Position numbers and translations under genes: made by a program. Of a DNA stretch of 45,590 nucleotides, positions 11,411 through 45,223 are shown one piece after another. The notes below the pieces were generated by a model, which was not told where the DNA came from, searched no databases, and worked only from the letters and a program-made list of their open reading frames with translations. The stretch's first letter is position 1. Every line of letters starts with the position of its first letter. The DNA is from a virus. The stretch lies in the IMG/VR virus record IMGVR_UViG_3300033150_002963, positions 1-45,590 of that record, one strand, 5' to 3'.

Positions 11411-11707
11411 CTAGTCTTCACTAGATACTACTCTAGCACAAAAATCAAGAACATCAAGAAAAATTTCTCTGACCACCTTATCAGTGAGTTTCTTTCCTTT
11501 ATATTTCTTTGTTATCTTCTTAACTCCCTCTTCTACTTTTTCCATCCCTTTTTCGGATAATCTCCATCCATCATCACTAACTAAAAGCTCCGGATGCTTT
11601 AAACAATATCCACATACCTGATAAGTAGGAAGGTCATGCTTTCCATCAGTAAACAACTTAACAGTATATTTAGCCTTATGTTTTCCACAAATATTACACT
11701 TATCCAT
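11411..11707 (-). CDS. Small zinc-ribbon protein downstream of DNA polymerase
   Basis: 98 residues from MDKCNICG. The start is chosen because GGGGGG lies just upstream and the ATG shares one base with the polymerase stop (TAATG). Two CxxC pairs (CNIC, CGYC) form a treble-clef-like zinc site in the first 45 residues; a Lys-rich helical tail follows. The tight junction suggests co-translation with the DNA polymerase. Function unknown. Confidence 0.8.
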   Translation of the reverse strand: MDKCNICGKHKAKYTVKLFTDGKHDLPTYQVCGYCLKHPELLVSDDGWRLSEKGMEKVEEGVKKITKKYKGKKLTDKVVREIFLDVLDFCARVVSSED

Positions 11708-13521
11708 TAGTCCCCCCAAGTATCAACAATTTTTGATTCCACATCAAGAGGAACACTGAGGCTGATATTAAAGATAGATAAAGGATTGGCCATTGTTTTT
11801 CTTACTATTGCCTCTATAAGTTCGGCGGATTCTTCCGGTGCTTCCAATACCAACTCATCATGAATTTGTAAAAGTAATCTAGCCCCCAATTCCTTTAATT
11901 TTGGATTATTTTCAATCTGAATCATGGCTCCACGTAAGATATCTGCTACTCCGGCTTGAGGCCCAGTATTGAGAGCTTGTCTTGCTCCTTCCGCTAAGTC
12001 AGACTTCAGAGCCTTGATATGTCTAGGTCTACCTAAAATACTGCGGAGATGGGGAGGATCATGATTGAGTGCTTCATACTTAATATGGTAATAGTAATAA
12101 GAAAATCTCGGGTATAAAGTAAAATATGAATCGACAAATTCTTTTATCTGCTTGATCGTATAATTATACCCAACCTCTGCTAGCTGAGAGGCAATTGTCT
12201 CAGCTGAAGAACCATAATGAAGCCCCAGTACTAATGCTTTAATAACACTTCTTTGTTCATCAGTTAAATTTCTAATTCCAAATATCCTTTTAGCAGTGAG
12301 AGTATAAAAATCTCCACTCTTACAAGCTTCTATCATATTAGTATCTCCGCAAAGATGTGCCATTACTCTAATTTCAGCCTGTGAATAATCACAGACAATT
12401 AATTTATATCCTGGAGATGCGACAAAAGCTTTTCTGATCCCTACTTTATCATGTCTTTTGGGAATGTTCATGACATTAGGTTTTGAGCTAGAGATTCTAC
12501 CAGTTTCAGTTCCGTGTAAATCAAAAGTGCTGTATAATCTCTTACCATCATACAATTGTATCTTCTCTAAAATGGGATCAACAAAGGAATTGAGTAGTTT
12601 TTGGTAGGCGCGATACTCAAGGATGGGGGCTACATACTCTTGGAATTTTGGGTGGGTAGATAATTTTTGAAGGGCTTTAGAACTGGTGGAAGGTGCTCTG
12701 GTTTTAGAAGTTCTTTGAGTAACCGGAAGACCAGCTGATTTAAAGAGAAAATCTGCTACTTGTTGGCTAGAGTTCAAATTAATCGGCTTACCAGCTAGTC
12801 TAGATACAGTGGTGATGCAGTTACTAACAATGCTTTCTATCTCTTTCTTGATCTCTTGGAGTTTTTCAGTATCAATCCTGATTCCTCTCCTTTCCATCTG
12901 ATACAAGCACATCAAAAATAATTGCTCTACTTCTCGATAATAATCAAATAAACTTTTACCGTCTCTCCAAGGAATTGACTCCAATCTCTCTTTGAGAGCT
13001 AAAAATAAAAGATAAGTAACATAGGCATCAAAAGTAGCATATTCGACTGTTAAATCCATATCTTCTAAAAAATCTGAGTCTTTAAAGACTTCTGAGAAAC
13101 TTTTATTTTTGTAAATTTTTAGGTGGAGTTTACTTAAGTGTTTCAAACTATAATCTTTATTCTCAGTATCCAACAGCCACGCCATTACAATAGTATCATA
13201 AATTTCTCCGGCTACTTTTACCCCAAGATTCTCAAAACAATGCATATCATACTTAGCATTATGAAAAATCTTGGCTATTTTTGGATTAGACAAGAGAAAA
13301 TCACATTCAAATACCAACTCTAAAGGCAAAAAGGCCCTAAATTTATCAGTAGCGACGGACCAACAGACAATTTTGTCCAACAACGCTGAATAGCCTGATT
13401 TTATTGAAGCTCCGTTCGTCTCCGTATCAATAGCAACCAAACTTACTCCTTCTATTAGTCTCCTTAAATCATCCGGATGATTAATAATTATTGGATCTGG
13501 AATATCGTACACGACAAACAT
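11707..13521 (-). CDS. polA: Family A DNA polymerase with 3'-5' exonuclease
   Basis: 604 residues. The exonuclease domain (about 1-190) has AIDTETNG (Exo I), FHNAKYD (Exo II) and YATFDAY (Exo III). The polymerase domain has DYSQAEIRV (motif A), the O-helix RSVIKALVLGLHYG (motif B) and QIHDELV (motif C). No 5'-3' exonuclease domain is present, as is usual in phages. The residue equivalent to E. coli Phe762 is Leu (K-A-L-V-L-G). It is the replicative polymerase of the block, together with primase and helicase about 6 kb upstream. Confidence 0.97.
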   Translation of the reverse strand: MFVVYDIPDPIIINHPDDLRRLIEGVSLVAIDTETNGASIKSGYSALLDKIVCWSVATDKFRAFLPLELVFECDFLLSNPKIAKIFHNAKYDMHCFENLGVKVAGEIYDTIVMAWLLDTENKDYSLKHLSKLHLKIYKNKSFSEVFKDSDFLEDMDLTVEYATFDAYVTYLLFLALKERLESIPWRDGKSLFDYYREVEQLFLMCLYQMERRGIRIDTEKLQEIKKEIESIVSNCITTVSRLAGKPINLNSSQQVADFLFKSAGLPVTQRTSKTRAPSTSSKALQKLSTHPKFQEYVAPILEYRAYQKLLNSFVDPILEKIQLYDGKRLYSTFDLHGTETGRISSSKPNVMNIPKRHDKVGIRKAFVASPGYKLIVCDYSQAEIRVMAHLCGDTNMIEACKSGDFYTLTAKRIFGIRNLTDEQRSVIKALVLGLHYGSSAETIASQLAEVGYNYTIKQIKEFVDSYFTLYPRFSYYYYHIKYEALNHDPPHLRSILGRPRHIKALKSDLAEGARQALNTGPQAGVADILRGAMIQIENNPKLKELGARLLLQIHDELVLEAPEESAELIEAIVRKTMANPLSIFNISLSVPLDVESKIVDTWGD

Positions 13522-13535
13522 ACTAGTCCTCCCTT

Positions 13536-13820
13536 TTATGCTCCTTTCAAAGTCCCTACTACCACTACTTTGTCTCCGGGAGTTACTTTACTGGAGAGCT
13601 TTGCTTCCTTACCATTAATTTGCACTTTTGTCTCTCTAGAATTGAATTCCGACTCAGAGTAGCCATGCTCAACTAACACCTCTTTTACTGTTTTTCCTCC
13701 CTTGTAATCAGTAAGAACAATTGGGTCTCCCCCAGGGAAGACTCCGATCGTGGTAGTTTCAGTGTACTCCTGAGTCGGATCTACAGACTTTGGAAATCCT
13801 TTGGGATCAACTTTGCTCAT
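13536..13820 (-). CDS. Ubiquitin-like (ThiS/MoaD-type beta-grasp) modifier
   Basis: 94 residues. After a 25-residue flexible N-terminus, the sequence fits a beta-grasp fold: strand IVLTDY, helix KTVKEVLVEHGY, then KVQINGKEAKLSSKVTPGDK and a final strand VVVVGTLKGA. The VNG...L..GD.V pattern followed by a short exposed Gly-containing tail is the signature of ThiS, MoaD and related ubiquitin-like proteins. The C-terminus is Lys-Gly-Ala rather than Gly-Gly; removal or tolerance of the terminal Ala would have to be explained. A good AGGAGG site is present, and the gene overlaps the E1 gene by 14 bases. It is the presumed substrate of the E1-like, E2-like and JAMM proteins next to it. Confidence 0.85.
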   Translation of the reverse strand: MSKVDPKGFPKSVDPTQEYTETTTIGVFPGGDPIVLTDYKGGKTVKEVLVEHGYSESEFNSRETKVQINGKEAKLSSKVTPGDKVVVVGTLKGA

Positions 13821-14487
13821 TTGATTCCTCCTCCTTGAACACTTGTAAATTTAATGGGAAGCTACTCGCCACAATATAGTGAGGCACCGTCTTACCCTTC
13901 AAATAAGCGACAACACAATTAACCATAGCATTAGCAATTAATACTGTATTGTTAACAATAGCTCTTTCATTGCATGGACTTTCTTCAGCATTTTCATCAC
14001 TATCAAACGAAATCGAGTAATTCTCAATAATCGAATTCCGTGTGGTATCTACCCCATATACAACTCCATAGCTAATCGACATACGCCCGTCAACCCACAG
14101 CCTGACTTTATCTTTATTTTCTTCCCACAATTTTCTTCTAAGGTCAAGAGAATCAACTGCACAAACCACTATATCATCTAATTCTACCTCTTCTTTGAGC
14201 AAGTCAACATCATGGGTAACTACATTACACCAATCTCCCATCGTTCTTTCAATCAATTCCTTCAGAGCTTCCACTTTTTTCTTACCTATTTCTCCTCTTC
14301 CATAAATCTGGTTCGGGACATTGTGGTCTTCAATCGTGTCGTGATCATATAAGTGAATGTTTCTAATCCCCAATTTTGCTAACTGGTATGCTACCCACGA
14401 ACCCAGTGCTCCTACTCCGAGCACATGTACTTTCCTTTCCCGAAATCTGTTTGGATCAAGAAAGGCAGCCTGTCTTAAGAAGTTCAT
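13807..14487 (-). CDS. E1/ThiF-like ubiquitin-activating enzyme
   Basis: 226 residues, a minimal single-domain E1. Seen: the nucleotide-binding loop GVGALGSWVAYQLAKLG, the DHDTIEDHNVPNQ segment that positions ATP, IGKKKVEAL, and VVCAVDSLDLRR. A cysteine in ESPCNERAIV fits the conserved catalytic Cys region of PRTRC-type ThiF proteins. In the family, ATP adenylates the C-terminal Gly of a ubiquitin-like protein, and the Cys then carries it as a thioester. It overlaps the JAMM gene by four bases (ATGA) and the modifier gene by 14, so the proteins are probably made together. Confidence 0.93.
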   Translation of the reverse strand: MNFLRQAAFLDPNRFRERKVHVLGVGALGSWVAYQLAKLGIRNIHLYDHDTIEDHNVPNQIYGRGEIGKKKVEALKELIERTMGDWCNVVTHDVDLLKEEVELDDIVVCAVDSLDLRRKLWEENKDKVRLWVDGRMSISYGVVYGVDTTRNSIIENYSISFDSDENAEESPCNERAIVNNTVLIANAMVNCVVAYLKGKTVPHYIVASSFPLNLQVFKEEESNEQS

Positions 14488-15113
14488 TTTTTATTACCTC
14501 GCAAGTTATCTCCGTAGCTACGTCCATAATAGTTTGACCCATAGCGTCCAGGATAGTAAGTACTACCTGTGTAGTTGCCATAGTTATAATTGTAATTACC
14601 AGTGTAGGTGAACTTTTGAACCTTGGGTTCCACCTCCTCTTTAATCCACTTATTGCGATCGAAAGGAACCCACAGGCTTGCTTTCACACCCTCAATTTTG
14701 AGTCCAGTTTCTCTCCATAACATACCGAAGTTAATCTCTTCTTTCGTCCCAATTGCCCAGAAGAAATACGGAGCATTCTTAAATAAATCATATTCTGACA
14801 CATCAACTGAACTTGGGGATGTAAACCCGGAATGAGTGTGGAGGTAGAAACGAAGCTCGGACAGAATGTCAATATCTTTCTGGTTTACCAACTCAAGAAC
14901 CGATTCGGGAACTATTTCAACAGAAGCAGCCGAAACTTTTTGCTTAGGGATTAATAACTCCTTTAATAGGAACTCGCTTTTCCCCAACTTTTCTACTAAA
15001 CCAAGTGCTGCTACTTCTGGAGGGATTTGCGTGCATATAGCTCTCATCTTTACCCACACTTCTGGAACAATATACAGAGTGGGAGCAATATCTTGCATTA
15101 AACTAATTTTCAT
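14484..15113 (-). CDS. JAMM/MPN metallopeptidase (deubiquitinase-like) with Tyr/Gly/Asn-rich tail
   Basis: 209 residues. The JAMM zinc motif is visible as LHTHSGFTSPSSVDVSEYD (H-x-H ... PSxxD). An upstream Glu in the first strands (PPEVAALGLVE) could be the catalytic general acid/base. The family cleaves isopeptide or C-terminal peptide bonds of ubiquitin-like proteins, so it would mature or remove the neighbouring modifier. Residues about 168-209 are a low-complexity tail rich in Tyr, Gly and Asn (YTGNYNYNYGNYTG), unusual for the family. An alternative is a lambda K-type tail-assembly peptidase; the E1- and E2-like neighbours argue against it. Confidence 0.92.
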   Translation of the reverse strand: MKISLMQDIAPTLYIVPEVWVKMRAICTQIPPEVAALGLVEKLGKSEFLLKELLIPKQKVSAASVEIVPESVLELVNQKDIDILSELRFYLHTHSGFTSPSSVDVSEYDLFKNAPYFFWAIGTKEEINFGMLWRETGLKIEGVKASLWVPFDRNKWIKEEVEPKVQKFTYTGNYNYNYGNYTGSTYYPGRYGSNYYGRSYGDNLRGNKK

Positions 15114-16308
15114 TGTTTCCTCCTCTCAAGGTTTGTAATATCTGTAAAATCTTATCATTCGGACTGTGGAAGCATTCCAAAATCTCGTCTACTGCGGGTA
15201 ATATCTCAGTAAGAGCCAGATGATTATAAATTGAAGAAGTTCTATCAAAGAAATACATTTCATACTGCTTTTTCTTTTCTTCACCATCCCATTCCAGCCC
15301 CGGGAAAGTCTTTGCTCCGTGAGGAGTACCTAACAGATTCACATACAACCAACCATATTCGATCATAATCGTATGAGGAGAGAAATACTCATTTTCTTTG
15401 GTTTTAAACTGAACTGTCAAAGGAATCTCAAACCAATCCACATCTTCAATTCTCTGATCATCTTTCAGGATATTTGCTGCTTCCTGGATCTTATCTCTTA
15501 GTTCACACAAATATCTTTTCCTAGAAAGCCTTTGGAAATTATTCCTGAACCAACGGTCAACAGATTTTGTAGCATTTATTGCACGAGTCTGAATAACGGG
15601 GGAGATAGTTGCCCGTGGAAAGTTCCCATAAACTGCTAAATGTCTATACTTATCAATGAGTTGTTTTGACTTTTCTAAAAAGTGAGTAAATAGTTCTCTG
15701 GTCTGTTTACTGTCTTCATGAGTAACATCCCAATAGCAGAACAAATCTCCGGGCGGAACCCATCCTCCCGCTAAATTCCCATCATCATCTTTAATAGGAA
15801 TTGCAAAATGATACTTATAAGGTGTGCAGGAGGGCACTTTAATACCAAACAATTTTGTAGGGTTGGTAATAGCAGAGAAATCTCCCCCAAAATATTTGGT
15901 ATCGTAAGAATGGATAACTAACAAATTATCATCACTTACCAACCCACCCGGTCCATGGGGCTGGAAGAAACACACACCTTCATACTTCTCTTCTAAGGAA
16001 TTGTTAAAACTATTAATCATCTTAGCAATCTCAGAAGGATCCCACGATATGTGGGCTCCAAATACAGACACTTCTTGTTTAGGAAGCAAAGAAGTACATT
16101 TATTAACCGGAGGTAGTGTATCCCCCGTAAAAATAGTTGCTAACTCAGTATTATAACTAACTGGAACGAAATTCTTCAATATGTTTTTCCTTGGCACGTT
16201 AATCAATATTGCACAGAAAATCTCTGGTGGCATCATGAACAGATACTTACTTTTTAAATAATCAGTACTAGGAGCGTACCCCGGAAATAGAAACCATTCA
16301 CCACTCAT
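15103..16308 (-). CDS. Unknown protein embedded in the ubiquitin-like cluster
   Basis: 401 residues, not recognised. It sits between the JAMM and E2-like genes, overlapping the JAMM start by 11 bases, with AGGAGG before its ATG. It looks like two domains. The N-terminal one (to about 190) contains QPHGPGG, HSYDTKYFGGD and GGWVPPGDLFCYWD. A basic helical middle (about 225-270) leads to a beta-rich C-terminal domain with LYVNLLGTPHG. Position alone suggests a dedicated partner of the conjugation system, such as a substrate adaptor, a PRTRC protein B-like factor or a second transferase. No catalytic motif was confirmed. Confidence 0.85.
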   Translation of the reverse strand: MSGEWFLFPGYAPSTDYLKSKYLFMMPPEIFCAILINVPRKNILKNFVPVSYNTELATIFTGDTLPPVNKCTSLLPKQEVSVFGAHISWDPSEIAKMINSFNNSLEEKYEGVCFFQPHGPGGLVSDDNLLVIHSYDTKYFGGDFSAITNPTKLFGIKVPSCTPYKYHFAIPIKDDDGNLAGGWVPPGDLFCYWDVTHEDSKQTRELFTHFLEKSKQLIDKYRHLAVYGNFPRATISPVIQTRAINATKSVDRWFRNNFQRLSRKRYLCELRDKIQEAANILKDDQRIEDVDWFEIPLTVQFKTKENEYFSPHTIMIEYGWLYVNLLGTPHGAKTFPGLEWDGEEKKKQYEMYFFDRTSSIYNHLALTEILPAVDEILECFHSPNDKILQILQTLRGGNNEN

Positions 16309-16317
16309 CTTCCCCTC

Positions 16318-17142
16318 CTATTTCTCTTTCCTAGTGCCAATTGCGTAAGGCCAGTTTCTCACATCAGAACCCCATGCATCATCAACATTAACATCAGATA
16401 CGAATGCATCCAGTAGCAATCCTAGTGTCATATAATCCTTAGATTGTATTAGTGAAACCACTTGCTCCGCCACGTTTCCAAAGCATGCATTGTCTTTAAT
16501 ATGTGGATGCACCCTACCACTACCACTCAAATCATGCACATTAACAAATCTCAAATCATCCCTTCTTCTAGACGAATAAGGAATTTTGACTACTACTCTT
16601 CCAAGATCATAGATGTGATTGCTGCTGCCTTTCCAAGTATGGGGGCGTAACACAATATAGACGGCATCAGAAACAGAAAGATACGACATCCCTGGAATAG
16701 GCTCAGCTAATGAAGGGGTAATCTGGAAATTATTTGCTGATCTTGGAACAGGTACTCCATCTTCTCTCAAATCAAAGATCATTTCAGTATCCGAGTGGCT
16801 CACTAAAGCATCCCAATTCCTCACTTTCATATACTTTGCTCCGGCAATTTCTAACTTATCTTTATGATAGACAACAACTTTAGGAAATTTACGGGCAACA
16901 GCTATCCAAAACCCTTCTGCGGGATATACGAGATCATCCTTATCGAGTTCTGGGACATCCTCATTTACATAAATAAATCCTTGTAGTCCTTCATCATTTG
17001 CTATTACTGACATTAATTCTTTCTTGCCTTTACTATTATATAAATACAATCTAATCCAAGGATATTTTTTTAAATCGTGTTGGCTGATTAATTCTGGTAA
17101 TCCATAAATATGTGCCGACGCCGCTCTAATCTTCTTACTCAT
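16318..17142 (-). CDS. E2-like ubiquitin-conjugating protein (candidate)
   Basis: 274 residues from MSKKIR; GGGAGGAG lies just upstream, and the earlier in-frame ATG overlaps that site. The C-terminal domain (about 160-274) has beta strands (YIVLRPH, GRVVVKIPYSSRR, LRFVNVHDL). A motif HPHIKDNACFGN follows, and then helices ending DDAWG and RNWP. The HPxI then Cys arrangement matches the flap and catalytic cysteine of E2 enzymes (HPNI...CL), in the shortened form of prokaryotic E2-like proteins. The N-terminal half has no recognised domain. With modifier, E1 and JAMM genes beside it, a thioester-transfer role for this Cys is the best reading. Confidence 0.75.
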   Translation of the reverse strand: MSKKIRAASAHIYGLPELISQHDLKKYPWIRLYLYNSKGKKELMSVIANDEGLQGFIYVNEDVPELDKDDLVYPAEGFWIAVARKFPKVVVYHKDKLEIAGAKYMKVRNWDALVSHSDTEMIFDLREDGVPVPRSANNFQITPSLAEPIPGMSYLSVSDAVYIVLRPHTWKGSSNHIYDLGRVVVKIPYSSRRRDDLRFVNVHDLSGSGRVHPHIKDNACFGNVAEQVVSLIQSKDYMTLGLLLDAFVSDVNVDDAWGSDVRNWPYAIGTRKEK

Positions 17143-17156
17143 TTTGTCTCCTCCCT

Positions 17157-18185
17157 TCACTCATTAAATACATCTAAGTCTTCAGGTTCATAAGATTTTT
17201 GCTGAGAATAGTCTGGCTCTTCTTGATATGGGACAGTGTGTACAGACTGTTGTTCTTTCTGGTAAGGATTTTTCACTCCTAAAATTATGGCTTGCCTCTC
17301 CAAAGGCAAAGGTCTGAATATCTCCTCAAAATCATACGGTTGAACCGATTCTAGATAATCTTTGGGAAGCTCCCTACACAGTTTCTCCTTGACTATTAAA
17401 GTTTTATATCCTCCTCTTCTTTCTTCTTGTTGCTGAACATACACTTCCAAATCAAATTTATATATTGAACCTCTTATTGCTTTCCCACAGTTACAGACGG
17501 TTTCCTGAATCAACTCGTTTGGCTTTGATACGTGTCTGCAACGAGGGCAGGTCCATGTCAAAGCCACTTGCTTTGCTTGATCAATCGGATGCATTTTCAT
17601 CAGCTGCTGAGGTGGTATCAAGTCTGACCTACATTCCGGGCACTGTAAAGATTTTAGAGTAATATACCCCCCACAACTAACACACTTAGAAGCAAGTTCC
17701 AAATTTTTCTCCCTCAAAACCCCAAAATATCCTGGTCCAACTGTCCAGTAACGACGACCAATAATCTGGGGTTTGTTTCCGGACATACATTTGTCGCAAG
17801 GAATATCTTCAGCTAAGTTCTTTCGGCAAGCTACGAAACTAGTGGAACCATCTTCTGCTTCAATTTTATGGACTAAGTTTAGGTTTAATACAGTAATAAC
17901 TCTACAAAATTGAGTACTAGATACCACGCTTTTCTGATCAGAATAAAAACACCCAACGCATTTTCCACCGAACTCGGGGTGTTCTGCACTGCATACTAAA
18001 TACCTCACCTTCCCCCCCGAGATGCAAACATGTCTTTTTACCTCATAAAACGGAAAAGGGAGAATTCTAATCGTAATTGGCATTGGATGTTTGTCAGGAG
18101 TCTGAATCGGAACTCTCAAAAATTCTTTCCTCTCTGGAGAGCTAAAACCTCTTTCTTCCTGCCCAGGAAACTGCCAGTATTCCAT
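17157..18185 (-). CDS. Multi-zinc-ribbon protein, candidate single-stranded DNA-binding protein
   Basis: 342 residues. At least three zinc sites: CVGC/CDKC in the first half, CVSC with CPEC, and CPRC with CNCG around residues 175-235. The N-terminal third is beta-rich and holds RVITVLNLNLV. The C-terminal end is acidic and Gln/Tyr/Pro-rich. Phage ssDNA-binding proteins of the gp32 type combine a beta barrel, zinc and an acidic tail. The location directly upstream of the modifier cluster and near primase and helicase genes fits that role, but sequence identity is not proven. The start is ATG behind AAGGAGG (a GTG one codon earlier is possible). Confidence 0.72.
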   Translation of the reverse strand: MEYWQFPGQEERGFSSPERKEFLRVPIQTPDKHPMPITIRILPFPFYEVKRHVCISGGKVRYLVCSAEHPEFGGKCVGCFYSDQKSVVSSTQFCRVITVLNLNLVHKIEAEDGSTSFVACRKNLAEDIPCDKCMSGNKPQIIGRRYWTVGPGYFGVLREKNLELASKCVSCGGYITLKSLQCPECRSDLIPPQQLMKMHPIDQAKQVALTWTCPRCRHVSKPNELIQETVCNCGKAIRGSIYKFDLEVYVQQQEERRGGYKTLIVKEKLCRELPKDYLESVQPYDFEEIFRPLPLERQAIILGVKNPYQKEQQSVHTVPYQEEPDYSQQKSYEPEDLDVFNE

Positions 18186-18224
18186 CACTAGTCCTCCTTC
18201 TTGTGAATAATTATTGGTATAAGT

Positions 18225-37201: not shown

Positions 37202-37459
37202 TTATTGGTTTCGTTTATCTACCATCTTACCAGTAACATATGTACCTGATGCTACTCCAGTAATGACCCCGAGTAGCATGGCTATCTCATTTAGATCATC
37301 AATAACATGGCAGAAGTAAAGAATACAGGATGCAAGGGTAAGGATAAGAACTTCAAACATGGAAATAGTAAAAAAGAAGGCTTTTTTGGAGAGATTTCCT
37401 TGATTATCTTGGAGCAAGAAGATCCAGTTTATTTTCCTATGTTTTTTTCTACGTGCCAT
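37202..37459 (-). CDS. Small two-helix membrane protein, holin-like
   Basis: 85 residues. A basic N-terminus (MARRKKHRK) and an amphipathic stretch (WIFLLQDNQGNLSKKAFFF) precede two transmembrane helices (about 31-50 and 57-75). The D-x-x-GN-x-S-x-K lead-in resembles a family of phage membrane proteins often annotated as holins. It starts inside the end of the ligase gene (31-base overlap) with a weak ribosome site, suggesting coupling. No endolysin gene is visible in the window. Confidence 0.7.
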   Translation of the reverse strand: MARRKKHRKINWIFLLQDNQGNLSKKAFFFTISMFEVLILTLASCILYFCHVIDDLNEIAMLLGVITGVASGTYVTGKMVDKRNQ

Positions 37460-38880
37460 CTTACAAATGCTGGTGCTCTTAATTTTCCTGGTTTGGAAGG
37501 ATCCTCAGGATCAGGAAATACTTCCAGACAAGAAATTTCTGCGATTTTTCCTTTATACTTATTCCAATTCTTGTAAATTTCCCTTCTCTGAGCATCAGTA
37601 AACCCAGTTCCTACATGAGTAACCAATCTACCCCCTTCCGGGATTACTAATAATGCTCCGATAGCCTTTCCCTTTAGCCTACCTTTTCCTTCAGTATACC
37701 CAACCACTTTGCAGTCAATCGTAGGTCTAAACTTCACTTTAATAAATCTAGTAGGTAATCTTTCTGGATCATATAATACTACTCCTTCTTCGGTTAGTGG
37801 GTGTTTCTTCTCTTTGATTAATTGATATATCTTTTCCTTTTGGGCAGGAGTTCTAGCTATTGGCATTAGTTTGATTTTTGGTATTTTCAGCTTTTTTACA
37901 ATTTCCTTTAATAATTCATATCTTTCCGAATAAGGAAGCTTATCTTCTACATCTTTTCCTTTATATCTTACTACATCAAAGATATAGTACTGGAAGTCGT
38001 AGCCTCTCTCTTTTTGAACTCTGCGGGCCTTCTCGGGAGAAGCATTCAGGATGCCGGAAATTATCCTAGCGGGTAAAAATTTTTTCTTCCCTCCTACTTT
38101 ACGAAAACCAATTACTTCCCCTCTCAAGACCGTCCCAGCCAACTCCCTGGGAGGTTTTTTATAGGTAATCTGTGGGAATCTAGGAGTATACTCAATAGCA
38201 CTTAATACTTCGTGTTCTGGACGATGAGAAAACATCCTGAGTATCGGTTGCTTTGGTTCTATATGTAGAGTGGCAAAGGACCCATCTAATTTAGGCAGCA
38301 ACCATTCTATTCCAGTAAACTGGATCTTATCTGGATCCCAGTTTACGAAACTAGGTTTTGCTGGTGGGATCTTTTTATCTCCATGCTTAGGAGTAGTGCA
38401 CATTATAAGCCATTCTTTTCCTCTTATTTGCCTAAGTAGATATTCTCTTGGGAAGCGACGATGAAGAGTAACGAAACGAACCATATCAGGCCTTGCTTCC
38501 AACACTTCTATCCTACCTCTATCCGCTTTCCTAACTGTCCCGGCTCCATATCCCGCCTTAATTTTTCCTGAAAAATCAAAGTAGTCTATGTCATGATCAA
38601 ACGTACGGACAGCCAGTCTTTTCTGACCAGGATCTGGTAATCCCTTTCTTAATACCCATGAATATCCCTTGTTAGCTCTTAAATCTCCCAGCCTCAAGTC
38701 ATAATGAGTGCCTCGTTTAGTAGTATGTTCGTGTAAGACATATTCCCACTCCTCTGGATTTTTAACTCTCCTGATCCTGGAAGTATTATCAGATGTGATT
38801 CCAATAGCCCTAGAAGCTATTTTTATAGGAAATTCCAGGGGACGGACACGGGCAATTCGCACCAAGCTACTGATCTCCAT
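37429..38880 (-). CDS. ligD: LigD-like 3'-phosphoesterase fused to ATP-dependent DNA ligase
   Basis: 483 residues. The N-terminal domain (about 40-120) matches the LigD phosphoesterase: VLHEHTTKRGTHYDLRL (catalytic His/Arg), KRLAVRTFDHDIDYFDFSG and GYGAGTV. The ligase domain has motif I KLDGSF, the RGEVIGF strand, GVVLYD near motif IV and FIKVKFRP (motif V). It then has an OB-fold C-terminal domain. In bacteria the two domains trim 3' ends and seal breaks in Ku-dependent end joining; the LigD polymerase domain is absent here and no Ku gene is visible. The ATG is six bases after an extended -10 box and has no ribosome site, so it is probably leaderless. Confidence 0.93.
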   Translation of the reverse strand: MEISSLVRIARVRPLEFPIKIASRAIGITSDNTSRIRRVKNPEEWEYVLHEHTTKRGTHYDLRLGDLRANKGYSWVLRKGLPDPGQKRLAVRTFDHDIDYFDFSGKIKAGYGAGTVRKADRGRIEVLEARPDMVRFVTLHRRFPREYLLRQIRGKEWLIMCTTPKHGDKKIPPAKPSFVNWDPDKIQFTGIEWLLPKLDGSFATLHIEPKQPILRMFSHRPEHEVLSAIEYTPRFPQITYKKPPRELAGTVLRGEVIGFRKVGGKKKFLPARIISGILNASPEKARRVQKERGYDFQYYIFDVVRYKGKDVEDKLPYSERYELLKEIVKKLKIPKIKLMPIARTPAQKEKIYQLIKEKKHPLTEEGVVLYDPERLPTRFIKVKFRPTIDCKVVGYTEGKGRLKGKAIGALLVIPEGGRLVTHVGTGFTDAQRREIYKNWNKYKGKIAEISCLEVFPDPEDPSKPGKLRAPAFVRWHVEKNIGK

Positions 38881-41975: not shown

Positions 41976-42698
41976 TTATAACACAATTTCTATCTCCCCT
42001 TTCAAAGTAGCCGCATATTTGCCCACCAACCAAATCGGTGGGTCAATACTAGACTGCTTGATAAGCTTCTTACTAGTAACGACTTTCGAACTGCGGGACC
42101 AAAGAAAGTTACATGCCTTGTCAACATTGCCATGAGAGAACAATTTTACAATATACCCTGGTTCAGCAATAGTTACATAGAATCCCTCTATTGGAGTAAG
42201 AGAAATAGCTGGAAAGGAAGTAATATCCGTTCTAATCTGTTTTGTGGGCTTACAGTACCAAAATCCTTTAAAATATGCAGCTTTAATGGCATATTCTAAA
42301 ACCTTATTTGACAGATGGCGAGCAATATTAAGTGATACCTCCAGTGGATCTATTTTTAATGAATAAAGATTATTAAGAGCTGTGGTCATACCCAAGATTA
42401 TAGGAGCCCAATCCAAAGCACTGTCTAAGTCCAGTAATGTTGGTATCAGAATATTGGTAGGCTCAGCAAGATCTAGAAGCGAAAAGATCATGGAGCAGAT
42501 AGGAAAACTAACTCTATTGTCCCGGAGAAATGTATCTAGTGAGTAGGTAAATTCACCTATTGAAGAGATTAACTTTACATTATGCTCTTCTCCCTTTTCT
42601 ACCCCAACATATACCCATTGAGAAATTGGAGCAAGAAGAGCCTTCTGTTCAGAGGTACAGAAACAAATTACTTCCGGATATAGAGCCTCTGTGGTCAT
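41976..42698 (-). CDS. Hypothetical protein beside sugar-nucleotide genes
   Basis: 240 residues, ATG overlapping the stop of the nucleotidyltransferase gene (ATGA). Mixed alpha/beta with a hydrophobic middle (DLDSALDWAPIILGMTTALNNL) and a late strand IWLVGKYAATL. No catalytic motif recognised. The coupling suggests a role in the same sugar or surface pathway. Confidence 0.73.
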   Translation of the reverse strand: MTTEALYPEVICFCTSEQKALLAPISQWVYVGVEKGEEHNVKLISSIGEFTYSLDTFLRDNRVSFPICSMIFSLLDLAEPTNILIPTLLDLDSALDWAPIILGMTTALNNLYSLKIDPLEVSLNIARHLSNKVLEYAIKAAYFKGFWYCKPTKQIRTDITSFPAISLTPIEGFYVTIAEPGYIVKLFSHGNVDKACNFLWSRSSKVVTSKKLIKQSSIDPPIWLVGKYAATLKGEIEIVL

Positions 42699-43411
42699 GT
42701 GATCACTTTTTGGATGACTAGTTGATTAGCCCGATGATAACTTTCAAAAGTACCTGCGTCTACCCAGGCTCCTTCAAGAAAATAATGATGAAGCACCCCT
42801 CTTTTAATATATTCATTGAAGACGTCAACGATTTCTGTCTCCAATCTTTTACTAGGTTTAAGACGTGGAATAACACTCCAAATATATGGGTCAAAATAAT
42901 ATATCCCAGTTACTGCATATTCGCTAGGTGGCACTACTGGTTTCTCAACGATTTCTATAATTTCATTTGCCTCATCAAATTTTGGTACTCCAAATCGGGA
43001 AGGATCAGAAACTTTAGCAAGGAAGACAACACACCCATCTGGTTCCTCTTCTACTATCTCAATAGGAAGTGGATCATCAAAGATATTGTCGCTGAGTAAC
43101 ACAAAAAACTTCTCATCACCAATAATATCCTTAGTTAACCATATTGCACTAGGTATTCCGTTAGGCTCTTCCTGAACTACATAGAAAAACTGGCACCCAA
43201 ATTCAGCACCAGAACCTAAGAGATTGATAATATCCCCACTATGCTCTTTCCCCGTAATAACAGCTATTTGAGTAATACCAACATTTACTAATTTTTCTAC
43301 TGAGTAATAAATCATGGGTTTGTTGCCTACCGGTAGGGTGGCTTTATTATGAACTTTAGTTAACGGATAAAGTCTAGATCCTGTCCCCCCCGCGAGAATG
43401 ACTCCCTTCAT
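42695..43411 (-). CDS. rmlA: Glucose-1-phosphate thymidylyltransferase-like nucleotidyltransferase
   Basis: 238 residues from MKGVILAGGTGSRL, with GGAGGAG upstream of this ATG. Family motifs: the nucleotide loop GGTGSRLYPLT, NKATLPVGNKPMI, DNIFDD (metal site) and VEKP. The last part, GAWVDAGTFESY, matches RmlA-type enzymes that make dTDP-glucose from glucose-1-phosphate and dTTP. It works with an RmlD-like reductase encoded nearby; RmlB and RmlC are not in the window. The product could feed glycosylation of phage DNA, virions or the host surface. Confidence 0.9.
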   Translation of the reverse strand: MKGVILAGGTGSRLYPLTKVHNKATLPVGNKPMIYYSVEKLVNVGITQIAVITGKEHSGDIINLLGSGAEFGCQFFYVVQEEPNGIPSAIWLTKDIIGDEKFFVLLSDNIFDDPLPIEIVEEEPDGCVVFLAKVSDPSRFGVPKFDEANEIIEIVEKPVVPPSEYAVTGIYYFDPYIWSVIPRLKPSKRLETEIVDVFNEYIKRGVLHHYFLEGAWVDAGTFESYHRANQLVIQKVIT

Positions 43412-43760
43412 AACTCTCCTCCGTAATAAATTGAATTTTGAGAAATACCCCGTCCGACATTGATATGGGAACAACTGTTATTTTGGGGGATTTCTCAGTG
43501 ACTTTTAACCATGCCGCATATACTAAACTTTTTTGGCACAATTCTGGAATAGAAGTATCAAGAGCAGATTCGAGGAGTACATCAAGATTATTATCTTTAG
43601 CTAACATAAAGCAGTATTTACACATACATCTCTCCAAATGACCTAAATTGTCAAAAGTAGGATTCTCATGGGCTTTGGCCCACGCATCTACTACCTCATC
43701 ACCAAAGTATATCTTCAGATATTCCTTGGTTTTTCTAAGTATTGCCTCGTAATCCACCAT
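43374..43760 (-). CDS. Hypothetical protein between sugar genes
   Basis: 128 residues, helical, with a Cys-rich piece (LERCMCKYC, about 42-50) that may bind zinc or an Fe-S cluster. Its 3' end overlaps the nucleotidyltransferase start by 38 bases, and its start lies inside the RmlD-like gene's 3' end. Not recognised. Confidence 0.7.
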   Translation of the reverse strand: MVDYEAILRKTKEYLKIYFGDEVVDAWAKAHENPTFDNLGHLERCMCKYCFMLAKDNNLDVLLESALDTSIPELCQKSLVYAAWLKVTEKSPKITVVPISMSDGVFLKIQFITEESYEGSHSRGGDRI

Positions 43761-44640
43761 ATTTATTATACAATGACAACAAATAAGTTTGTAGATCCTC
43801 AGTAAAATGCCTAACCGTGAAGTTCAATTTACCCATGACTATAGAAGTCATTGATGTATTTTTAGGTCTAGGAGCTGGAACTGGGTATTCAGAACTCAAT
43901 ATCGGTTTAATTTTGATATCTTGGATATTCAGTACTTGAAAACAATAGCACGCCAATTCATACTTTGATATTGATCCAGAATTAGTAGAGTGCAGAAGCT
44001 TATATTTTGCAGATGGATAATTATAGAAGAAGTCATGATATAGCAAAATTATATGAGCAGCTCGAGTTGCCCAAGTAGGAGTTCCTACTAAGTCATAAGC
44101 AATTCTAAAATTCCTCTCACCCTCCAAATAACGATGTATTAATCTACTAGGGAAATCTCTCCCATCTTTCCCAAACAACCAAGATACTCTACATACCCAG
44201 AATTCAGCATCCAACACTGCCTTTTCTCCTAACCACTTACTCCTCCCATATTGGTTGATAGGATTCGGCTTTTTTTCTTCATGATAAGGAGGGTTGGTAC
44301 CATCAAAGACAAAATCAGTTCCAATATGAATCAGCCCAACATTAAGATCCCTACAAATATTAGCCAATTCCTTAACCGCTCTATAATTAATATCCATTGC
44401 CAAATCCGGTTCTAACTCACATCTGTCAACATCGGTCATGGCCACACAATTTATTACCATTACCTTCTCAGACTTAGTAATATGATCTTTGATAAAATAT
44501 TGCAACTCTTCAGAATTTCTAATATCAATTTCTCTGGGAACTACATTCAACTTGAGATAATCAGACCAGACCCTAACAATTGCTTGACCAAGCTGTCCAG
44601 TAGCACCGAGTATGATTGCTCGCTTTAATCCTCTAGTCAT
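43735..44640 (-). CDS. rmlD: RmlD-like dTDP-4-dehydrorhamnose reductase (SDR)
   Basis: 301 residues from MTRGLKRAII. The Rossmann loop is ILGATGQLGQ; TDFVFDGTNPPYHE and YGRSKWLGE (catalytic Tyr-x-x-x-Lys) are typical of RmlD; the start codon overlaps the upstream stop (ATGA). The enzyme completes dTDP-L-rhamnose synthesis by reducing the 4-keto group with NADPH. The absence of RmlB/RmlC here implies host enzymes or other phage genes supply the intermediate. Confidence 0.9.
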   Translation of the reverse strand: MTRGLKRAIILGATGQLGQAIVRVWSDYLKLNVVPREIDIRNSEELQYFIKDHITKSEKVMVINCVAMTDVDRCELEPDLAMDINYRAVKELANICRDLNVGLIHIGTDFVFDGTNPPYHEEKKPNPINQYGRSKWLGEKAVLDAEFWVCRVSWLFGKDGRDFPSRLIHRYLEGERNFRIAYDLVGTPTWATRAAHIILLYHDFFYNYPSAKYKLLHSTNSGSISKYELACYCFQVLNIQDIKIKPILSSEYPVPAPRPKNTSMTSIVMGKLNFTVRHFTEDLQTYLLSLYNKYGGLRGNT

Positions 44641-45223
44641 TTTCCCACGGCAGCTTGAAGTCGTCGATAAATGTTCCACACTGCTTACGAGAAGCTAAAA
44701 AATCAGCCAAAAAAAGGAGAATTTGGGGTAGACTAAAGTCATTTAGATTGGTATGGCCTGGAGGCCCCCAGCGTCCCATATGAGTGCGTATTAAATCAGC
44801 TACTTTCATAGCATCTTCCTTAGGATGTTTAGTAACAAATAAATCAGTATTTTGCCTTACTAATTCAGAGGCAGTTAATGGGTGATTCTCATATTCTTTT
44901 CCATTTTTATACTTTATTTTTTTGCCGATATCATGTAAAACGGCTGCCATCAACATTGCCGAGTAGTCTTCTTTTGAAAAATCTAAAGCTTCACAAAACT
45001 GATGGACGAAATAGCAAACTCTCTTAGTATGGATAATTAGACCTCCTTCCCCTCGTGCACACATCGGGTGATGTGTACCACTACTACTTGCAGGAGCAAA
45101 GAAGAACTCATCGGGAATTATTTTTAAAATGAAATTGCGAGTGGTTTCTCGGTAATCCTGGGTCATTTGCAGTAATTCCCACTCAAAGCAAGCCAACTTT
45201 TGTTCATCAGTCAGTTTCTTCAC
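44633..45223 (-). CDS. HD-domain hydrolase
   Basis: 196 residues, GTG start behind AAGGAGG. The HD signature is visible: His in GGLIIHTKRV, the HD pair in AAVLHDIGKKIK, a later His in YENHPLTA and a His/Asp in the C-terminal half (THMGRWGP). HD proteins are metal-dependent phosphohydrolases of nucleotides, nucleic acids or cyclic nucleotides. The substrate is unknown. It overlaps the glycosyltransferase gene by 17 bases. Confidence 0.83.
   Translation of the reverse strand: MKKLTDEQKLACFEWELLQMTQDYRETTRNFILKIIPDEFFFAPASSSGTHHPMCARGEGGLIIHTKRVCYFVHQFCEALDFSKEDYSAMLMAAVLHDIGKKIKYKNGKEYENHPLTASELVRQNTDLFVTKHPKEDAMKVADLIRTHMGRWGPPGHTNLNDFSLPQILLFLADFLASRKQCGTFIDDFKLPWEND

Follow-up and report, generated by a model that had tools for sequence, protein, structure and literature searches.

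The Five-Gene Locus

The minus strand of IMG/VR virus record IMGVR_UViG_3300033150_002963, a sequence of 45,590 bases with the hallmark genes of a tailed phage (hereafter the window, meaning the whole stretch analysed), contains a block of five genes at 13536–17142 that quite probably encodes a phage ubiquitin-like conjugation and deconjugation system, as judged from sequence comparison. An earlier note had claimed five coupled genes here, and all five were confirmed: they encode a predicted beta-grasp modifier, a ThiF-type single-domain E1, a JAMM peptidase, a protein of 401 residues, and an E2-like protein. Neighbouring genes of this cassette overlap by 4–14 bases or stand 9 bases apart, and clear Shine-Dalgarno sequences precede most of them. 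For the E2-like gene the likeliest start is the ATG at 17142, which follows the Shine-Dalgarno sequence GGGAGGAG and agrees with the coordinates of the earlier note; the gene's longest open reading frame runs from a GTG at 17160. The first 8 kb of the window match positions 83,720–91,719 of a 142.6-kb IMG/VR contig exactly, and the cassette region is identical there too. The features of the cassette are as follows.

13536–13820, minus strand: ubiquitin-like modifier, 94 residues; N-terminal tail of about 20 residues, then a predicted beta-grasp domain (residues 21–94) ending Lys-Gly-Ala
13539–13547, minus strand: Lys-Gly-Ala tail of the modifier; Gly93 is invariant in the alignment and aligns to the penultimate Gly of SAMP2
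13807–14487, minus strand: single-domain E1/ThiF-type adenylyltransferase, 226 residues; Pfam ThiF, 5.7e-25
13972–13974, minus strand: candidate catalytic Cys172 of the E1; Cys in 131/131 distinct relatives
14484–15113, minus strand: JAMM/MPN metallopeptidase, 209 residues, with a Tyr/Gly-rich C-terminal tail; assigned by hhalign to relatives, with RPN11 best in the PDB
14802–14840, minus strand: JAMM motif H92-T-H94-x(6)-S101-x-x-D104, its spacer one residue short of the usual x(7); the catalytic Glu33 is found upstream of it
15103–16308, minus strand: 401-residue protein between the E2 and JAMM genes; unassigned by family searches
16318–17142, minus strand: E2-like protein, 274 residues (280 from the GTG); E2 domain in the C-terminal half, 16321–16740
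16477–16509, minus strand: E2 motif HPHIKDNACFG with candidate catalytic Cys226 (280-residue numbering), identified by conservation in relatives

Evidence for a Proposed Conjugation Pathway

Relatives of the cassette were gathered with an E1 profile from viral contigs (80 loci in each of two overlapping scans) and from genome contigs (17 more), which gave 132 distinct loci once identical E1s were collapsed, 116 of them not cut off upstream. A JAMM gene was found at 108 of these 116 loci, a gene for an E2-family protein at 97, and both at 94; since E1 similarity was the criterion for including a relative, these frequencies describe the E1-similar set only, and the E2 counts depend on an iterated hidden Markov model (HMM). 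Joint linkage of this kind is far above chance and speaks for the suggestion that the cassette is a set for both conjugation and removal. Distances between the modifier, E1, JAMM, and E2 proteins correlate across loci (r 0.72–0.85; 0 of 2,000 permutations as high), which could be the result of joint inheritance as a module, although the correlation is inseparable from general phage relatedness.

In the E1, the nucleotide-site residues G24, G26, D48, D50, K71, and D112 occur in all 131 relatives. With the GxGxxG and D/R/K pattern to which they belong, they point to the adenylation Rossmann fold of the E1/ThiF superfamily, and equal invariance makes Cys172 the candidate thioester-forming cysteine. 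The protein aligns to the family of its relatives with E 4e-51 by hhalign, the window's own copies having been removed for this comparison and for those of the JAMM and E2 proteins with their families. When the E1 family profile was compared with all PDB sequences, UBA5 was the best match (1.3e-15), followed by MoeB, UBA1, and ThiF. A tblastn search with the E1 retrieved 84 phage records, including crAss-like phages, Flavobacterium phages, and Xanthomonas jumbo phages.

The E2-like protein on its own has no Pfam match, and neither single-sequence searches (Pfam, PHROGs, NCBIfam, PADLOC) nor tblastn against phages gave anything usable. Compared with 21 relatives by hhalign, it matches over its C-terminal 93 residues (P 98, E 2.8e-13) with HPH...C-x-G aligned. 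P219, H220, C226, and G228 are invariant in 20/20 aligned full-length relatives and conserved in at least 90% of 58 domains, and some family members carry HPNISSDGDICWG or HPNVTLNGHVCFG, nearly the eukaryotic motif. All 60 of the matches listed for the E2 domain profile against PDB sequences are ubiquitin-conjugating enzymes, the best of them UBE2D2 at just E 0.001, and in the three alignments displayed the profile's HPHvnsdGkpClGn aligns to HPNINSNGSICLDAL so that the catalytic cysteines line up. These matches argue for homology to the ubiquitin-conjugating (UBC)/E2 superfamily, and the E2-like reading of an HPHI...Cys motif, first proposed from this single sequence, holds up with its cysteine conserved. 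At least two CxxC pairs lie beyond the motif in 22 of 101 E2 proteins and are possible zinc modules. Some loci have two tandem E2-family genes ahead of the JAMM gene (L158, 1999–5110; L160, 1952–5082; L183, 1736–4966; and similar ones), and one second-copy E2 has lost its Cys (L110, 3760–5121), which suggests a pair of active and inactive E2s.

The modifier alone gives a weak, sub-threshold match to Pfam ThiS (0.0012). Its family consists of small genes adjoining the cassettes at other loci. Against an HMM of 31 modifiers from those loci it scores 30.6 bits (E 7e-8), compared with 11.6 bits for the best of 5,000 shuffled sequences, and hhalign places it in the family with P 96 and E 3.6e-9. 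The family profile retrieves SAMP2 (1.2e-7) from the PDB, then ThiS, MoaD, and TtuB; the top match, dTor, is a designed repeat protein and was rejected as an artefact of repeated short matches. Pfam ThiS is found in 6 of 26 family members, and SAMP2 likewise in 6 of 26. By sequence profile, then, the modifier has a predicted beta-grasp domain, as the earlier note had proposed. That note had also said what would overturn its view, namely an E2-like protein with no UBC-like fold or a variable cysteine, together with a modifier that was not a beta-grasp protein; this was checked, and such a combination did not appear.

The IKGG tail of SAMP2 aligns to vKGn in the modifier family, so that Asn or Ala falls on the last Gly of SAMP2. 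Family tails read K-G-N in 69 units, with minorities of E-G-G, K-G-G, K-G-A, Q-G-A, and R-G-A, and one to three further residues sometimes follow this site. The Lys-Gly-Ala ending at which the earlier note had stopped is really there; it is no oddity, however, and fits the family pattern. In 11 distinct proteins the modifier units are arranged head to tail, two to four per gene and mostly joined at KGN, in the manner of polyubiquitin. Such precursors need a peptidase to cut them, and a JAMM is encoded nearby. Three phage genes with three or four Lys-Gly-Asn-joined units (L134, 7905–9056; L136, 7239–7913; L140, 5302–5943) also have a separate single-unit gene alongside.

The JAMM protein alone likewise has no Pfam match, and single-sequence searches of the same four family collections gave nothing usable. 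Against 71 relatives, hhalign gives P 99.6 and E 6.1e-24. Among 118 relatives E33 is kept in 109, H92 and H94 in 115, and S101 and D104 in 116 (92%–98%), and the motif residues are invariant in 26 aligned sequences. The family profile finds RPN11 best in the PDB (3.2e-10), then CSN5 and JAMM1. The pattern E ... H-x-H ... S-x-x-D is that of a predicted JAMM/MPN+ zinc site. In Flavobacterium phage Fpv1 (L007, 2710–5002) an opposite-strand endonuclease gene splits the JAMM gene in two, perhaps as a homing insertion or an intron.

The 401-residue protein had no meaningful match in Pfam, PHROGs, NCBIfam, PADLOC, the PDB, or viral contigs beyond its own, nor by tblastn against phages, and among the viral contigs searched it was seen in this phage only. 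Because some loci have the order E2-E2-JAMM-E1, we considered whether this protein might be an inactive second E2, but found no support for it; its match to the E2 profiles is no better than those of shuffled sequences. It may be a ligase, an adaptor, or a substrate.

Genomic Setting and Distribution

The cassette is flanked by two genes that lie, like it, on the minus strand:

11707–13521, minus strand: family A DNA polymerase, separated by 14 bases from the modifier gene upstream of it; matches thousands of phage PolA genes by tblastn
17157–18188, minus strand: Zn-rich protein of 343 residues with many CxxC pairs; zinc-finger matches are sub-threshold, and its stop overlaps the longest E2 open reading frame

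The Zn-rich protein shares a transcription unit with the cassette, and its role is uncertain; it may bind single-stranded DNA or serve the E2 as a zinc-finger partner. Elsewhere the window encodes a terminase large subunit, a DnaG-type primase, a DnaB helicase, a RecA-like protein, a PD-(D/E)XK nuclease, a RusA resolvase, and a uracil glycosylase, and its terminase and portal-like genes are far from the cassette. By eye, we also noted a 483-residue protein at 37429–38880 that resembles ATP-dependent DNA ligases (with a LigD-like beginning) and, near the right end at 42695–44679, nucleotide-sugar genes for a sugar-phosphate nucleotidylyltransferase-like protein and an RmlD-like reductase.

Placement within a replication block, which the earlier note had pointed out for the window phage, recurs in other phages. 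The cassette of crAss001 stands between genes for primase and uracil glycosylase, and in other locus groups DnaB, primase, or Sak4-like genes lie near the cassettes. The neighbourhoods in crAss-like and Flavobacterium phages encode JAMM proteins (HSHNNM..FFSGTD), and these and the Xanthomonas phage neighbourhood encode proteins with HPH/HSH...C-x-G. Downstream of E1, L069 (9803–10945) and some 24 loci like it have a gene for about 380 residues with matches to the polymerase and reverse transcriptase families of PHROG; the product may be the reverse transcriptase of a retroelement.

Few cellular genomes encode the E2: with the starting genome counted each time, it was found in 2 of the 399 searched in one phylum and in 6 of the 380 in a second. 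Two metagenome-assembled contigs from different genomes of Candidatus Buchananbacteria (L101, 1207–9593; L088, 1233–10127) have the cassette after superoxide dismutase-like and before uvrB-like genes, as identified by eye, and the E1s encoded there are those closest to the window's. This setting seems chromosome-like, and some Patescibacteria seem to carry the cassette on the chromosome. Because of these copies, the family among the searched sequences is mostly, and not strictly, viral.

A Predicted Cycle and Its Alternatives

If the five-gene block is a conjugation system, we infer the following order of enzymes, trimming after Gly, and protein targets. The JAMM would trim Ala94 and leave a modifier ending ...Leu-Lys-Gly; the E1 would adenylate this Gly and then carry the modifier in thioester linkage to Cys172; the modifier would pass to Cys226 of the E2 and from there to a lysine of a target; and the JAMM could take it off again. 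Cleavage after the Gly is likelier than use of Asn or Ala itself, since the Gly is invariant and the residue that follows it variable. The targets may belong to the replication or recombination complex of the phage, or be host proteins encountered there, a guess more likely wrong than right. They are the likeliest candidates because the cassette is coupled to a DNA polymerase gene and because similar cassettes elsewhere lie among primase, helicase, and recombination genes.

Besides the limits on the linkage and distance statistics and the modest E-value of the UBE2D2 match, several points weigh against this reading. A C-terminal Gly-Gly is wanting, the tail being Lys-Gly-Ala here, mostly Lys-Gly-Asn in the family, and x-Gly-Gly in a minority; the conserved residue after the Gly, usually Asn, is without explanation; and the 401-residue protein has no assigned part in the cycle. 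Modifiers with a single Gly, such as UFM1 and ATG8/12, exist, and for this reason the absent Gly-Gly does not preclude conjugation. The last point concerns the fold of the E2, for which the earlier note had asked for structure prediction. An AlphaFold2 model of the E2 domain (predicted local distance difference test [pLDDT] 84.8; predicted template modelling score 0.78) has six strands, the HPH/Cys loop, and three helices, which is the UBC order, but a Foldseek search of the PDB with this model gave no significant match to a UBC protein or any other (best E 0.33, not an E2). Because of that result, the predicted UBC fold rests on the sequence profiles, the motif, and the topology. Against viral models the best Foldseek matches of the E2 domain are uncharacterised proteins of phages, crAss-like phages among them. 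A full-length model built with 20 relatives is poor (pLDDT 56), and a PDB structure search from it is meaningless.

Three other functions were weighed. The cassette, or the modifier as a decoy, might instead disarm a ubiquitin-like defence of the host, such as Bil, Cap2 of CBASS, or Bub, and the earlier note had itself raised counter-defence. Bacterial defences of this kind exist (PMC10097602; Bil is reviewed in PMC11354881), the JAMM could strip host tags, and PADLOC E1-E2 models match the E1. What is conserved here, however, is a full cascade that includes a modifier and an E2 of its own, more than an inhibitor would need, the genes around the cassette are replication rather than accessory genes, and the chromosome-like Buchananbacteria copies, with their superoxide dismutase and UvrB neighbours, suggest a wider role; we regard counter-defence as unlikely.

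A sulfur-carrier system, in which a ThiS/MoaD-like donor would be activated by the E1 for thiolation of tRNA or a cofactor and the JAMM would do no more than trim the tail, fits the matches of the modifier and E1 to the ThiS and ThiF families and the presence of ThiS and MoaD among the PDB matches of the modifier profile. It accords poorly with a tail of Lys-Gly-Asn/Ala in place of Gly-Gly, and genes for ThiG, MoaE, rhodanese, or thiouridylase were not noticed beside the window cassette, where no systematic search for them was made. The conserved-cysteine E2 linked at 97 of the 116 loci and the multi-unit, head-to-tail modifier genes make this role quite improbable. A part in virion assembly or tagging, with the modifier attached to structural proteins or scaffolding assembly (lambda tail protein I and the JAB domain of protein K have been the subject of such speculation), recalls the ubiquitin-like and JAB pair of lambdoid tail modules (Iyer et al. 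2006, PMC1779556), but those modules as described have no E1 or E2, the window cassette sits in a replication block far from the terminase and portal-like genes, and Lambda_tail_I is matched by just 1 of 26 modifiers, at 0.011, so that such a role is very improbable.

Returning to conjugation, a broader version of it has about an even chance of being right: that a large and as yet undescribed viral family of ubiquitin-like systems exists, in which tailed phages and some candidate-phyla bacteria run the full modifier-E1-E2-JAMM pathway, some with polyubiquitin-like tandem genes; that its E2 motif is nearer to the eukaryotic HPN...C than are the described bacterial defence E2s; and that the pathway is used during genome replication, with the modifier joined through its Gly after removal of the conserved Asn or Ala, which makes for an unusual tail. 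Earlier accounts of ubiquitin-like conjugation in bacteria concern anti-phage defence and, as predictions, mobile elements, whereas here viruses appear to own the full pathway within a replication module. If this is true, a layer of protein modification is added to phage biology, bacterial viruses may control proteins through a chemistry regarded as characteristic of eukaryotic cells, and biochemists gain a great many natural E1-E2-JAMM systems of minimal size (an E1 of 226 residues and a single-domain modifier). The question of how the eukaryotic pathway arose would also be touched, because the profiles of the cassettes point to UBE2, UBA5, RPN11, and SAMP2. The cultured phages crAss001, Fpv1, and Xanthomonas PhiXhv-12 have related clusters and make the reading testable.

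Comparison with Known Systems

We found no description of phage E1-E2-JAMM-modifier cassettes in the open-access literature, the body of work that was searched, as distinct from subscription papers and preprints. Phage proteasome-like genes have been described (PMC8665760), and the available part of that account draws no link to such cassettes.

Eukaryotic E2s (UBE2D, UBE2N, UBE2L3) are the first proteins retrieved from the PDB by the phage E2 profile and share with it the helix end ..FL..N..D. The phage family differs from them in that most members have HPH rather than HPN (HPN occurs in L055 and L156), in C-x-G-N after the Cys, and in extra N-terminal regions of varied length, and the Foldseek match is not significant. 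UBA5, the best PDB match of the phage E1, is likewise a minimal adenylation-domain E1, and its partner UFM1 ends in a single Gly once trimmed. The phage modifier profile, however, matches SAMP2 and ThiS and not UFM1, UFC1 is not among the E2 matches listed, and the phage E1 has just 226 residues. The archaeal pair SAMP2 and HvJAMM1 provides the best natural PDB match of the modifier family and also includes a JAMM, but most of the phage family has Asn or Ala in place of the terminal Gly, and we know of no E2 in SAMP systems.

The bacterial operons of types 6d and 6e and the Bil system have the same set of parts as the phage cassette (ubiquitin-like protein, E1, E2-like protein, JAB), the type 6d operons being PRTRC-like. 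Such operons were predicted by Iyer et al. (2006), who found polyubiquitin-like proteins in type 6e and described the type 6d E2 as lacking the classical His and the type 6e E2 as inactive, with the JAB fused to the E1 (PMC1779556). The phage cassettes, by contrast, have an E1 separate from the JAMM and an HPH..C motif in the E2, and most of their carriers are phages. The close kinship to PRTRC or Bil that the earlier note had suggested was not upheld. The E1 scores 40.8 bits with PRTRC_ThiF, against a required 144.75, and the partner genes do not match PRTRC B, PRTRC C, or the other Pfam or NCBIfam models: no Prok-E2 or Prok_Ub match was found for the modifier, JAMM, 401-residue, or E2-like proteins or for the E2 and modifier alignments. 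In Bil, BilD is a two-domain E1, BilB a CEHH E2, and BilA a two-domain modifier (PMC11354881), whereas the window has an E1 of 226 residues with one ThiF domain, an E2 motif of HPH..C-F-G, and a single-domain modifier. CBASS Cap2 is a fused E1 and E2 next to a CD-NTase; here the PADLOC E1-E2 models match the ThiF part only, the E1 and E2 are separate genes, and no CD-NTase was seen on inspection of the open reading frames neighbouring the cassette. Lambda tail proteins I and K, for which no E1 or E2 is described (PMC1779556), differ from a cassette that has both and lies in a replication rather than a tail module.

Related clusters are found in two cultured phages, crAss001 (Gp75–Gp79) and Flavobacterium phage Fpv1 (gp53–gp58), in which an E1 adjoins a canonical JAMM among replication genes. 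An HSH..C-x-G protein takes the place of the E2 (hhalign E 2.6e-5; no E2-profile match at E 0.01), and the candidate modifier of crAss001, Gp79, has a weak ubiquitin-like profile match (E 0.0009 over 43 columns). Parts of these kinds occur in predicted bacterial operons and in the defence systems Bil and Cap2, but in another architecture; what appears new is their occurrence as phage cassettes of this kind.

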